This document shows positions 3,743 to 15,919 of a DNA stretch of 34,991 nt, one piece after another. Every line of letters begins with the position of its first letter. The first letter of the stretch is position 1. Position numbers and translations under genes: made by a program. The notes below the pieces were generated by a model. The model saw nothing but the letters and a program-made list of their open reading frames with translations. It searched no databases and had not been told where the DNA came from. The DNA is from Chloroflexota bacterium. GTDB lineage: Bacteria > Chloroflexota > Dehalococcoidia > SM23-28-2 > RBG-16-64-32. Where the stretch lies: assembly GCA_022561635.1 (NCBI GenBank), contig JADFQV010000017.1, positions 1-34,991 on the forward strand. Reading direction: 5' to 3'.

Positions 3743-3829
3743 GCGCCTTCGGACACGATCGAGGGCGGCACCAGCGAGATCCAGCGCAACATCGTCGCCA
3801 CCCGCGGCCTCGGTCTTCCCCGCGAGTAA
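3743..3829 (+). pseudogene. Fossil 3' end of an acyl-CoA dehydrogenase gene
   Basis: Directly after the cyclase fossil and in the same frame, the sequence reads APSDTIEGGTSEIQRN and on through IVATRGLGLPRE to TAA at 3827-3829. This is the hallmark C-terminus of acyl-CoA dehydrogenases. Over the last 24 residues it agrees at 19 with the live gene ending at 6233. The fossil keeps the family-typical QRN where the live gene has NRG, so it comes from a paralogue rather than from a recent copy. Nothing upstream of 3743 continues the dehydrogenase. Confidence 0.8.
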
Positions 3830-3851
3830 GCGGCAGCCGCTTCGGTGTGAG

Positions 3852-4895
3852 CTAGTCGGGAAGCTGCAGGTAGTAAGAGTTGCCGGCGGACTGCCACTCT
3901 TCGAGCATCTTGGCGAAGACCGGCCCCATCGGGTCGATGCCGCGCATGGGCATCGAGCCGCGGCGAATCATGAAGTCGTCGGGCGCCAGTTCGCCGCCAC
4001 GCAGGAAGTGCCGCTCAGCTGCCTCGTTGCGACCTTGCTCGTAAAGCCAGAACGCCAGTCCGAACTCTGCGCGGGCCTCCTGGTGCTTCCCGGTCGGCAG
4101 CGAGCGCAGGGAGCGAACCTCGTCAGGAGTCATCGCCTGGGCCTCGCCGCGGACCCAGGCTCGGAGGGCGTTCATGTGTTTCGCCGAGTCGACGCCGGTG
4201 ATCGCTTTGAAAGTGTCCCGGCCGAAGGCGACATCGTTGGGGCGCGCAATACGCCCGTCTTCGTCGATCCAGACGATGGTGGGCACGTTGACCATGTTGT
4301 AGAGATCGGCCACGAGATGCTGGGTGTCGATGAGGCTGGGATGCGTAGGCTTGGCCGCTTCAATCCAGGGCCGCGCGTCGTCGGCAGTCTTGTCCATAGC
4401 CACGCTGATAACCACGAAGTTGGAGTCCGCAAGCTCCTCGTACAGCGCCTGCCACACGGGCAGATCGTAGCGGCAGCCTCACCATGAGGCGTAGGCGACG
4501 AGCAGGATCTTCTGCCCTCTGTAGTCGGACAGCGAGTGAAGCTTGCCCTCAACGTCGGGCAGCGTGAAGTCCGGCGCTTGCAGCGTTGCGAGTGCTTCGC
4601 CGCGGTCCCCGGCCGACGTCCCCAGGTAGGCAGCTCGCTCCTCCGCATCCAGGGCCAGCGGGCGGTCTATCAGACGAGCGAACTGCAGAAGATCGACGCC
4701 CGCGTCGGTGACGACCGAGCTGGCTTCGGGTACTGGAACACAGGCAGCCTCGCGGCAAAATCCCTCGGATTTTAGCTCCCAGCCCAGAGCGCGCTTGATG
4801 TCTGCGTGGTCCAGCCGGATCTGATCGTCCCGGACCGTGGCGGGCACCGAGGCGGCGCTCCCGTCATCGATTATCGTGAAGTTTTCTTCTCGCAT
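3852..4895 (-). CDS. Thioredoxin-fold redoxin with in-frame UGA at the catalytic Cys (candidate selenoprotein)
   Basis: Read through one TGA (4481-4479), this is a single 347-residue protein. Residues 1-105 form an N-terminal domain with Cys47 and Cys52; APDFTLPDVEGKLHSLSDYRG begins a TlpA/AhpC-type thioredoxin fold near 106. The active site reads YASW-[TGA139]-GCRYDLPVW, where redoxins have Trp-Cys. Cys141 is kept and the cis-Pro is P205 (VNVPTIVW). A TPR-like C-terminal tail (about 255-345) follows. Homology runs unbroken on both sides and TGA replaces exactly the expected Cys codon, so selenocysteine is the simplest reading. A SECIS-like hairpin follows (see 4449-4481). The alternatives are a nonsense mutation or two separate gene pieces. 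Membrane anchoring is not evident. Conventional callers would report 4479-4895 and 3852-4457 separately. Confidence 0.72.
4449..4481 (-). promoter_or_regulatory. UGA codon with candidate bacterial SECIS hairpin
   Basis: On the minus strand the TGA (4481-4479) is followed, 15 bases later, by CTGCC-CGTGT-GGCAG (4463-4449): five perfect pairs, extendable by a U-G pair, with a 5-base loop. The loop's second base is G, 22 bases after the UGA. Published bacterial SECIS rules ask for a small apical loop with G among its first two bases at roughly this distance. In GC-rich DNA such a hairpin can arise by chance, so it is supporting evidence only. Confidence 0.5.
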
Positions 4896-5033: not shown

Positions 5034-6233
5034 ATGGACTTTCGAGACAACCCCGAAGAAGCGGCCTTTCGCAAGGACGTGCAAACGTTCATTAGCGCCG
5101 AGTACAAGAAGGACGACGACGGCGGCACAGTGAGCGCCGCCCAGGCCGCCTCGGCCGGCGGACCGGACGCGTTGAAGCGCTACAACGACTGGATCAAGAA
5201 GCTGGCGAAGAAGGGTTGGGTGGCTCCGGCCTGGCCTACGGAGTACGGCGGCGCCGGCCTCAGCGTCATGCAGCAGTTCGTGTTCAACGAGGAGCTGGCT
5301 TTGGCGCGCGCGCCGCGGCCCGGCGGCATCGGCATCACGATGGCCGGCCCGACGATCATCGTCTACGGCACGGACGAGCAGAAGAAGCAGCACCTTTCCG
5401 GGATGCTCCAGGGCGAGGTCTGGTGCCAGGGCTTCTCGGAGCCCGGTTCCGGGTCGGACCTGGCGTCGCTGCAGACGAAGGCCGAGAAGGACGGCGACGA
5501 CTACATCGTCAACGGCCAGAAGATCTGGATCACGGGCGCGCAGTACGCCGAGCGAATGATCCTCCTGGCGCGCACCGATCCCGAGGCCCCGAAGCACAAG
5601 GGCATCTCATACTTCCTGCTCGACATGAAGACGCCCGGCGTTACGGTGAAGCCGCTGGTCAACATGGCCGGCACGTCCGGCTTCAACGAGGTGTTCTTTG
5701 ATAACGTGCGCGTCCCCCGCAAGGACCTCCTGGGCGAGGAGAACCGCGGCTGGTACGTGGGCACGACGACGCTGGACTTCGAGCGCTCGTCGATCGGCAC
5801 CTCGATCGCCCAGGGCCAGTCAGTCGAGAACCTGGTGCTGTGGGTGCAGGAGCACCGCCGCGGCACGCTGCCAGAGACGGCGAAGATGGTGCTGGCCGAG
5901 CGCTCGATCGAGGCGGAGACGGCGCGCCTGATGTCGTACCGCGTGATATCGCTCCAGAACCGCGGCCAGGTCCCGAACCACGAGGCTTCCGCGGTCAAGA
6001 TTTACGCCGGTGAGCTGAACCAGCGCATCGCCAACACGGCGATGAACATCATGGGGCTGCCGGGACTGCTCACTCGCGGCGAAAAAGGATCGGCCAACGA
6101 CCGCCACGCGCCGAACAAAGGCCGCTTCGGGCGCGTCTACCTCCAGTCCGTCGCCTCGACGATCGCCGGCGGCACGAGTGAGATCAACCGGGGCATCATC
6201 GCCACCCGTGGGCTCGGACTCCCGCGCGGCTAG
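5034..6233 (+). CDS. Acyl-CoA dehydrogenase
   Basis: The product is a 399-residue FAD-dependent acyl-CoA dehydrogenase, which introduces a 2,3-double bond into acyl-CoA thioesters and passes electrons to ETF. The N-terminal helical domain (residues 1-125) is followed by the beta-domain signature FSEPGSGSDLASL (about 134-146) and KIWITGAQYAERM, then the C-terminal helical domain ending in GGTSEINRGIIATRGLG. Length fits the family. GGAGGA at 5020-5025, 8 bases before the ATG, fixes the start. It lies 114 bases upstream of the Ccr-type reductase, and a shared role in short-chain or branched acyl-CoA conversion is plausible; at 399 residues it is shorter than typical methylsuccinyl-CoA dehydrogenases (~550). 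The substrate cannot be told from sequence. A decayed paralogue tail lies at 3743-3829. Confidence 0.92.
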   Translation: MDFRDNPEEAAFRKDVQTFISAEYKKDDDGGTVSAAQAASAGGPDALKRYNDWIKKLAKKGWVAPAWPTEYGGAGLSVMQQFVFNEELALARAPRPGGIGITMAGPTIIVYGTDEQKKQHLSGMLQGEVWCQGFSEPGSGSDLASLQTKAEKDGDDYIVNGQKIWITGAQYAERMILLARTDPEAPKHKGISYFLLDMKTPGVTVKPLVNMAGTSGFNEVFFDNVRVPRKDLLGEENRGWYVGTTTLDFERSSIGTSIAQGQSVENLVLWVQEHRRGTLPETAKMVLAERSIEAETARLMSYRVISLQNRGQVPNHEASAVKIYAGELNQRIANTAMNIMGLPGLLTRGEKGSANDRHAPNKGRFGRVYLQSVASTIAGGTSEINRGIIATRGLGLPRG

Positions 6234-6347: not shown

Positions 6348-7601
6348 GTGGTCTTGACGAAGAACATCTACGAGATCGGCGAGATTCCGCCGCTCGGCGA
6401 AGTGCCGGACCAGATGTACGCGCAGGTGATCCGCCCGGAGCGCTTCGGCGAGCCAAAAGATGCGTTCAAGGTCGAGAAGGTGGAAACGCCGAAGGACCTG
6501 AAGCCGAACGAGGCGCTGATCCTGAGCATGGCCGCCGGCATCAACTTCAACAACGTCTGGGCGTCACGCGGTATCCCCGTCAACGTCATCAAGGCGCGCG
6601 AGAAAGAAGGCGACACGACGGGCTTCCACATCGGCGGCAGCGACTCTGCCGGCATCGTTTACGCCGTCGGGGACAACGTCACCAACATCAAGATCGGCGA
6701 CCGCGTGGTCGTCCACTGCGGCATGTGGGACGAAGACGACCCGTTCGTAAAGGCCGGCAACGACCCGATGTTCTCGAGCTCGTTCAGGATCTGGGGCTAC
6801 GAGTCGAACTGGGGCAGCTTCGCGCAGTTCACGAAGGTGCAGGCGCACCAGTGTCTGCCCAAGGCTGAGCACCTGACCTGGGAAGAGGCCGCGGCACCGA
6901 CGCTCGTGGGCGCCACCGCCTACCGCATGCTCATGGGTTGGCCGCCGAACACTGTGAAAGAGGGCGACGTCGTGCTCATCTGGGGCGGTTCAGGCGGCCT
7001 CGGCTCGATGGCGATCCAGATCGTCCGGGAGATGGGCGGCATCCCCATCGCCGTTGTGTCCAGCGAGGAAAAGTTCGAGTACTGCATGAACCTGGGCGCC
7101 AAGGGCTGCATCAACCGCAAGGACTTCGACCACTGGGGCATCATGCCGCACTGGACCGACGACGAGGCCTACGGTAAGTGGGCGAAGGGCGCGCGAGCGT
7201 TCGGCGCCAAGATCTGGGAGATCGTCGGCGAGCGCAAGAGCCCGGCGATCGTCTTCGACCACCCGGGCGAGGACACGGTGCCAACCTCGATCTTCATCTG
7301 CGACACCGGCGGCATGGTGGCGATCTGCGCCGGCACGAGCGGCTTCAACGCCGTCGTCGACCTGCGTTACCTGTGGATGCGCCAGAAGCGCTTTCAGGGT
7401 TCGCACTTCGCCAACGACGAGCAGGCGGGCGCGTTCAACCAGCTGGTGCTGGACAAGCGGATCAACCCCTGCCTCGGCCAGACGTATTCGTTCGAGGAGA
7501 TCGGGCACACGCACCAGATGATGTACGAAGGCCGGCAGCCGCTGGGCGTGATGGCGGCGCTCGTCAGCGCCCCGAAGGCCGGCCTCCTCGACCTGCCGTA
7601 G
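6348..7601 (+). CDS. ccr: Crotonyl-CoA carboxylase/reductase-type enoyl-CoA reductase
   Basis: A 417-residue MDR-superfamily protein with the long Ccr-type layout. The catalytic domain covers about residues 25-185, with the family stretches INFNNVW and [15 protein letters not shown]. The Rossmann domain has [12 protein letters not shown] at about 209-220, followed by [16 protein letters not shown] (341-356). Enzymes of this family reduce crotonyl-CoA with NADPH, with CO2 to ethylmalonyl-CoA or without it to butyryl-CoA. Of four CO2-pocket residues known from the Kitasatospora enzyme (Asn81, Phe170, Glu171, His365), Asn69, Glu152 and His353 appear kept while Phe is Tyr151. Carboxylation is therefore likely but not assured; an acrylyl-CoA reductase role is the main alternative. 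GAGGAGGAG before the GTG at 6348 supports that start. Confidence 0.88.
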
Positions 7602-14791: not shown

Positions 14792-14892
14792 AGCGGCGTT
14801 CCGAGCACTAACACGCCCCGATCACACGTAACTGCCAAGCGGAGGGGCCGTCTTAGGTACTGTGGGACGCGAATAGCGCCGTACACGACTAC

Positions 14893-14990
14893 CGAAGGGC
14901 GAACCGCGCCGAAAGGGCGGGGCGCAAAGCTACGGGCCTAAGTCCGCTGAAGGTGGATACGGTCGCCTGGCCGCCGGTGAGACAGGCGAC
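14893..14990 (+). promoter_or_regulatory. c-di-GMP-I (GEMM) riboswitch with expression platform
   Basis: The class I cyclic-di-GMP aptamer core is readable in order: AGGGCGAACC (14896-14905), a GAAA-type loop hairpin CGCC-GAAAG-GGCG (14907-14919), GGCGCAAAGC (14921-14930), CGGGCCTAAG (14933-14942), then the second hairpin and GGTCGCC (14961-14967). GGCGAACC (14898-14905) pairs with GGTCGCC to close the aptamer, with one bulged A. The AGGGC keeps the G that favours c-di-GMP over cGAMP in this class. GTCGCCTG (14962-14969) is also the exact complement of CAGGCGAC (14983-14990), so the closing helix and a downstream hairpin exclude each other, as expected of a switch. No U-tract follows, so control may be by translation or Rho. 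The downstream genes are a GGDEF and an HD-GYP protein. Confidence 0.88.
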
Positions 14991-15061: not shown

Positions 15062-15919
15062 ATGCCAAACGGAACGAGTCTGGCGACTTTGGAACGCGAT
15101 CTGGCGCGCGAAGAAGCCAGCATCAGCCGCATAGCCTGGACAGGCGGAATCGCGGTCACGATCGTCACGGTCGCAGCCCTGATCGCCTTGTCGGTGGGCG
15201 TCGGCGGACAGTGGTGGCACTACGCCCTCTACTCGACAGCGGCGGGCGTACCCCTGGCTTACGCATTCTTCTGCATCGAGGTCATTCGGCGGATGCAACT
15301 CTCCGCCTACCATCGCTTCAAGGCAAGGCTGGTGATGCAGTTGACTGATCTCCAGGAACTAGTCTACAGGGACGAAATGACCGGTCTCTTCAACCGCCGG
15401 CACTTCTACGAAGTCCTCAAGATAGAGGTCGAGAAGACCCGCCTCTCCAGGCAACCGCTGGCGATCTTGATGATGGACCTCGACGGGCTGAAGGCGATCA
15501 ACGACGAGTACGGCCACAGCATCGGTGACGAGATCTTGACCAACCTCGGCAAGGCGATGGCCCGGCACACGCGCACGCACGACGTTGCGGCCCGCCTGGG
15601 CGGCGACGAGTTCGGTATCGTGATGCCGGGGACTGACAAGCGGGGCGCCTTCGCACTGGCGCAGCGCCTGTGGGAAGACCTGGAGCGGACGCCGATGTAC
15701 CAGGACGGCGACACGTCGATCGTGGTCACGATCTCCGTCGGCCTTGCGGGCTACCCGTGGGGCGGCGAAGAAGTCGAAGAACTGATCCAGTGGGCGGACG
15801 CGGACATGTACGCCAACAAGGTATCGCGAAAACTCGCCAAGAGCGGCGACGCCCTGATACAGCCCGTTGCCTCTCAGGGCATCGAATCCGCGCCTGGCGA
15901 CGAATACGGAAACGCTTAG
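15062..15919 (+). CDS. Membrane-anchored GGDEF diguanylate cyclase
   Basis: The 285-residue protein has two membrane helices (about 23-46 and 52-74), a coiled linker, and a complete GGDEF domain (about 100-265). The active-site motif GGDEF is intact (180-184). The inhibitory I-site RTHD (171-174) lies exactly five residues before it, so product inhibition by c-di-GMP is expected. Other signatures are DEMTGLFNRRHF and MMDLDGLKAINDEYGH. It should join two GTP into c-di-GMP at the membrane; no extracytoplasmic sensor of any size is present. AGGTGG lies about 10 bases before the ATG. It follows a c-di-GMP riboswitch and is 11 bases ahead of the HD-GYP gene, with which it surely forms an operon. 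Confidence 0.92.
   Translation: MPNGTSLATLERDLAREEASISRIAWTGGIAVTIVTVAALIALSVGVGGQWWHYALYSTAAGVPLAYAFFCIEVIRRMQLSAYHRFKARLVMQLTDLQELVYRDEMTGLFNRRHFYEVLKIEVEKTRLSRQPLAILMMDLDGLKAINDEYGHSIGDEILTNLGKAMARHTRTHDVAARLGGDEFGIVMPGTDKRGAFALAQRLWEDLERTPMYQDGDTSIVVTISVGLAGYPWGGEEVEELIQWADADMYANKVSRKLAKSGDALIQPVASQGIESAPGDEYGNA

Follow-up and report, generated by a model that had tools for sequence, protein, structure and literature searches.

The stretch of DNA analysed here (34,991 nucleotides from a Chloroflexota bacterium, hereafter the window) contains on its minus strand a frame of 347 codons at 3852-4895, with ATG at 4895 and TAG at 3852, which is interrupted by exactly one internal stop, a TGA at 4481-4479 (codon 139) within the motif AYASW*GCRYDLPVWQ. 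The question raised by this locus is whether the UGA terminates a protein, results from a damaged codon or is read as an amino acid, and in the latter case which one. An earlier note on this DNA had proposed a selenoprotein from the single TGA of the SW-[UGA]-GC motif in an otherwise clean frame and from two flanks belonging to one domain, and both observations were reproduced. When searched separately, the N-terminal flank matched the AhpC-TSA family PF00578 at 6e-7 (profile positions 4-38) and the C-terminal flank at 1e-7 (positions 40-122). These two half-matches abut in the profile and are joined at 2e-19 by reading through the TGA, with a score for the UGC protein of 70 bits against a cut-off of 26. 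GC content by codon position indicated that the coding frame is unchanged across the TGA.

Homologues occur in 63 of 393 genomes from the class, almost always with a single TGA, and a scan of GTDB species genomes yielded 79 loci distributed among Rokubacteria, Chloroflexota, Actinomycetota, Myxococcota, Pseudomonadota, Acidobacteriota and Planctomycetota. The comparison of the same codon in 96 distinct members revealed TGA in 72 and TGC in 24, always followed by x-Cys, and no further stop in any of them. The Cys homologues aligned with the UGA, its recurrence in relatives and the search for further stops were the checks that the earlier note had considered informative, and all of them came out in favour of its reading. 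Cys was the only residue alternating with UGA, and the Sec/Cys label has changed at least seven times on the tree. The window gene thus carries an in-frame UGA at a redox position that is occupied by Cys or UGA in its relatives, and the location of both flanks in one AhpC-TSA/ResA domain, together with the same single TGA in the relatives, supports readthrough. The 3852-4895 gene very probably encodes a selenoprotein in which the UGA is read as selenocysteine (Sec139). If the UGA were instead a true stop, the locus would consist of a gene for a 138-aa protein and a second gene with its start at GTG 4457, an in-frame codon 21 nt downstream of the stop; this arrangement is highly improbable, since it cuts one thioredoxin domain in two and removes the catalytic residue, whereas the Cys homologues are encoded by one continuous frame.

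Tandem pairs of this selenoprotein gene, with TGA and an intact hairpin in both copies, were observed in L025, L026, L028, L030, L031 and L032.

Readthrough as Sec in bacteria involves a SECIS hairpin, and the putative element CUGCC-CGUGU-GGCAG is located at 4449-4463 (minus strand). Its stem begins 15 nt and its loop, CGUGU, 20 nt downstream of the UGA, the loop G is the 22nd base, and the energy is -10.3 kcal/mol; the hairpin with a 5-base loop and G at its second position previously noticed was found again at 4463-4449. The bacterial SECIS model comprises a loop of 3-9 nt with G in the first two loop bases, a stem of 4-16 bp, a distance of 16-37 nt from the UGA and an energy of at most -7.5 kcal/mol (PMC13188914), and the window hairpin lies within these limits. 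In the single-sequence fold, this stretch was no better than its shuffles (z = 0.01), so the hairpin alone proves nothing and the evidence comes from comparison.

The family hairpin, CUGCC-N-G[U/G]-N'-U-GGCAG, is encoded by Leu-Pro-Val/Gly-Trp-Gln, and protein conservation alone would therefore keep much of it. Synonymous bases were used to tell RNA constraint from protein constraint. The Leu codon is xTG in all 72 Sec genes and in 14 of the 24 Cys genes. The N-N' pair that flanks the loop GU, formed by the third bases of Pro146 and Val147 in the window protein, is complementary in 70/72 Sec genes (G-C 33, C-G 31, A-T 6), with a mean of 30.5 and a maximum of 48 after shuffling. Complementarity was found in only 8 of 24 Cys genes (8.6 by chance), and the Fisher test of Sec versus Cys genes gave p = 1e-10, a value that is only indicative because the sequences are related. 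When 268 pairs of variable columns were ranked, the N-N' pair came first (z = 9.4, the next being 3.5), and in Cys genes it fell to chance (z = -0.25). After thinning to less than 80% identity, pairing was kept in 13/14 Sec genes, but also in 7/14 Cys genes. On the tree, the type of pair changed at least 15 times without loss of pairing. The contrast between Sec and Cys genes and these repeated double changes are drawn from the pattern and do not depend on the p-values. These comparisons support a predicted SECIS hairpin under RNA-level selection in the Sec genes.

A pair closing the loop, with G and U extruded, fits the SelB-SECIS structures. A literature search on SelB-SECIS loop geometry retrieved nothing on point, and the Pro3:Val3 loop-closing pair is similar to the loop rule given in PMC13188914. 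Covariation that is present in Sec versions and gone in Cys versions constitutes an unusually clean demonstration of a SECIS element at the RNA level, and the same test can be applied to further candidates. A Cys member from Deltaproteobacteria (TGC; L058:2452-3477), which is outside the 96 counted rows, still keeps the perfect hairpin CTGCCGGTCTGGCAG and has apparently undergone a recent Sec-to-Cys change.

The machinery for Sec incorporation has been searched in the source genome, a 1.8-Mb Chloroflexota draft that is 84% complete, as the earlier note had recommended, and selA, selB, selD and tRNA-Sec were all found. The tRNA-Sec has a UCA anticodon, SelB (614 aa) aligns from end to end with the E. 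coli SelB on the ribosome (5lzb), SelA is encoded by two genes that are 59% identical, and SelD is also present. SelB was above the cut-off in 21 of the 31 genomes of the relatives search, which indicates that Sec use is old in the group. Readthrough by itself does not give the identity of the residue, and the UGA could be read as another amino acid by general recoding or by a suppressor tRNA. This is also very unlikely, because UGA is an ordinary stop elsewhere (TGA terminates 9 of the 24 window genes), a genuine tRNA-Sec and SelB are present, only Cys alternates with UGA in relatives and the SECIS pairing is under selection. A pseudogene or sequencing error, with the TGA as a broken TGC or TGG codon, would suit a draft assembly and a codon one base away from Cys, but it is refuted by the recurrence of the same single TGA, without any other stop, in independent assemblies of dozens of genomes from many phyla and by hairpin covariation restricted to the TGA versions, and its probability is negligible. 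We infer from sequence comparison that Sec is actually inserted at the UGA, and comparative genomics could hardly make the selenoprotein reading more secure.

Further observations were made on Sec-related genes of this genome. An AhpC/TSA-type gene on another contig (L138, C53:4419-4856) has a single in-frame TGA in HW*PYC (UxxC type), and this W-U-PYC redoxin is a probable second selenoprotein of the same genome. Both SelA genes are full-length (L016, C62:156-1487; L017, C48:42142-43494), and L016, on a 3.1-kb contig, might be a contaminant. Identical tRNA-Sec sequences at the start of C40 (L001) and at the end of C54 (L002), with nearly identical flanks that differ by one mismatch, probably represent one locus at an assembly break.

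The protein has three parts. A ResA/TlpA-like thioredoxin domain (about residues 105-220, 4236-4583, minus strand) is preceded by an N-terminal domain without known family (residues 1-104, 4584-4895) and followed by a helical C-terminal tail (about residues 230-347, 3855-4208) that is weakly TPR-like, with a TPR_12 score of 17.9 bits below the cut-off of 30.1 and helices in the model. The AlphaFold2 model obtained with 69 homologues reached a pLDDT of 96.9, and Foldseek retrieved matches only for the central domain, to ResA (2f9s/1st9, E about 4e-11). In the model U139 (4479-4481) is placed directly before the active-site helix (residues 140-154). In the alignment to solved ResA-like proteins, U139 falls on the first Cys of CxxC and C141 on the second, with one residue missing. 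Cys141 (4473-4475), the likely resolving Cys of the U-G-C, is invariant in the 69-sequence alignment, and N203-V204-P205 is invariant as well and places Pro205 where the cis-Pro loop normally lies.

In the N-terminal domain, Cys47 and Cys52 (C-x4-C) are invariant in both Sec and Cys versions and lie in the model on two strands of a tight hairpin. A profile search of this domain against the PDB gave no match, the comparison with Pfam gave scattered single matches, none of them confident, and the fold search gave nothing below E = 0.1. The very weak fold matches were to beta-grasp domains, ferredoxin types included, and serve as a lead only. Several Rokubacteria genes (L071, L076, L077, L079 and L088) are devoid of the N-terminal Cys-x4-Cys segment and keep the UGA and the hairpin.

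According to the proposed mechanism, the hairpin, 15 nt downstream, would bind SelB, which would bring Sec-tRNA-Sec to the UGA to yield the full 347-aa protein, with Sec139 at the N-terminal end of the active-site helix in the ResA/TlpA-like domain. From its position and chemistry, Sec139 would be the nucleophile that attacks a disulfide, a peroxide or a similar oxidised substrate, and Cys141 would resolve the intermediate through a Se-S bond, the U-G-C being the usual CGPC minus one residue. Cys47 and Cys52 would form a second thiol pair with a possible role in electron relay or metal binding, and the probable task of the helical tail is to bind a partner. A speculative and rather doubtful proposal sees in the N-terminal domain a novel module for redox chemistry or metal binding that feeds the U-G-C centre; the protein would then be a self-contained selenoenzyme with two centres, acting on a substrate unlike those of known thioredoxins. 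Confidence in the catalytic part of the mechanism is much lower than in the reading of the UGA as Sec, since no gene conserved next to the locus hints at a substrate.

The N-terminal Cys domain and the tail had been taken in the earlier note as a hint of novelty, a suggestion that does not hold, since both are part of the named NCBIfam model NF041054.1, WAxxUGC_long (ResA-like WAxxUGC motif-containing protein, 354 positions). The homology extends over the N-terminal and thioredoxin domains and, in the closest members, also over the tail, and the W/Y-A-S-W-U-G-C motif and the architecture are common to both. All of the 69 aligned members match NF041054. The window protein scores 257.2 bits, below the cut-off of 300. 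Among ten relatives, four from Chloroflexota pass (310-368), one from Chloroflexota is just short (298) and the other five, from the wider clade of the window protein, score 216-276. With the window protein at 257 and its wider clade at 216-276, all below 300, this group forms a sister branch outside the curated cut-off.

U-G-C selenoproteins with PF00578 have been listed since 2008, when 46 'Prx-like (UGC-containing)' selenoproteins and 855 Cys homologues were described in the GOS metagenomes (PMC2398784), and a 2026 review lists the family as 'UGC-containing TlpA disulfide reductase' (PMC13188914). Published examples of the UGC family include MBL6689828.1 (PMC9312934) and MDE0950781.1 (PMC13188914). 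As in the window protein, a PF00578/TlpA-like domain is combined with U-G-C, and the subfamily of the window protein is likely this Prx-like (UGC-containing) family, to judge by domain and motif. A literature search for the motif name WAxxUGC retrieved no papers. The listings of 2008 and 2026 and the NF041054 model indicate that this kind of selenoprotein is not new; the window protein is a further member, on a sister branch, of an already known selenoprotein family. The ResA/TlpA/DsbE oxidoreductases (2f9s, 1st9, 3gl3, 1jfu) resemble the window protein in its thioredoxin domain (residues 105-220; fold match at E = 4e-11), but they have a CxxC with Cys, are exported or membrane-anchored and are without extra domains. 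The window protein has U-G-C in place of CxxC, extra N- and C-terminal domains and, by eye, no evident export signal at its N-terminus. Automatic annotation is likely to split such genes, and a well-supported selenoprotein is added here for uncultured Chloroflexota.

No neighbour was conserved across the 79 loci, where only lineage-specific neighbours were found; those of Rokubacteria, identified by visual inspection of their sequences, were an SDR, an aldolase-like and a NUDIX-like gene. The neighbour search gave no matches at E 1e-10 and only two weak matches at 1e-5. A contaminating contig was considered and rejected, since the neighbouring gene (6348-7601) shares 91-93% identity with its counterparts in three congeners, which argues for a native contig. 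In the scan of the 393 class genomes, the selenoprotein gene was absent from three genomes assigned to the same genus, and it is consequently not essential there. Just beyond the selenoprotein gene, 80 nt at 3755-3834 are a relic of the 3' end of an acyl-CoA dehydrogenase gene, with 85% identity to the end of such a gene in a congener, and the full acyl-CoA dehydrogenase gene is at 5034-6233. In one same-genus genome without the selenoprotein gene (L131), a different gene adjoins the acyl-CoA dehydrogenase. The relic, the same-genus genomes without the gene and this arrangement together suggest gene gain or exchange at the selenoprotein locus. Elsewhere in the window, a c-di-GMP-I riboswitch aptamer (14888-14978, plus strand, 55.3 bits) was located upstream of an ORF at 15062-15916, which encodes an apparent membrane protein of 285 aa.
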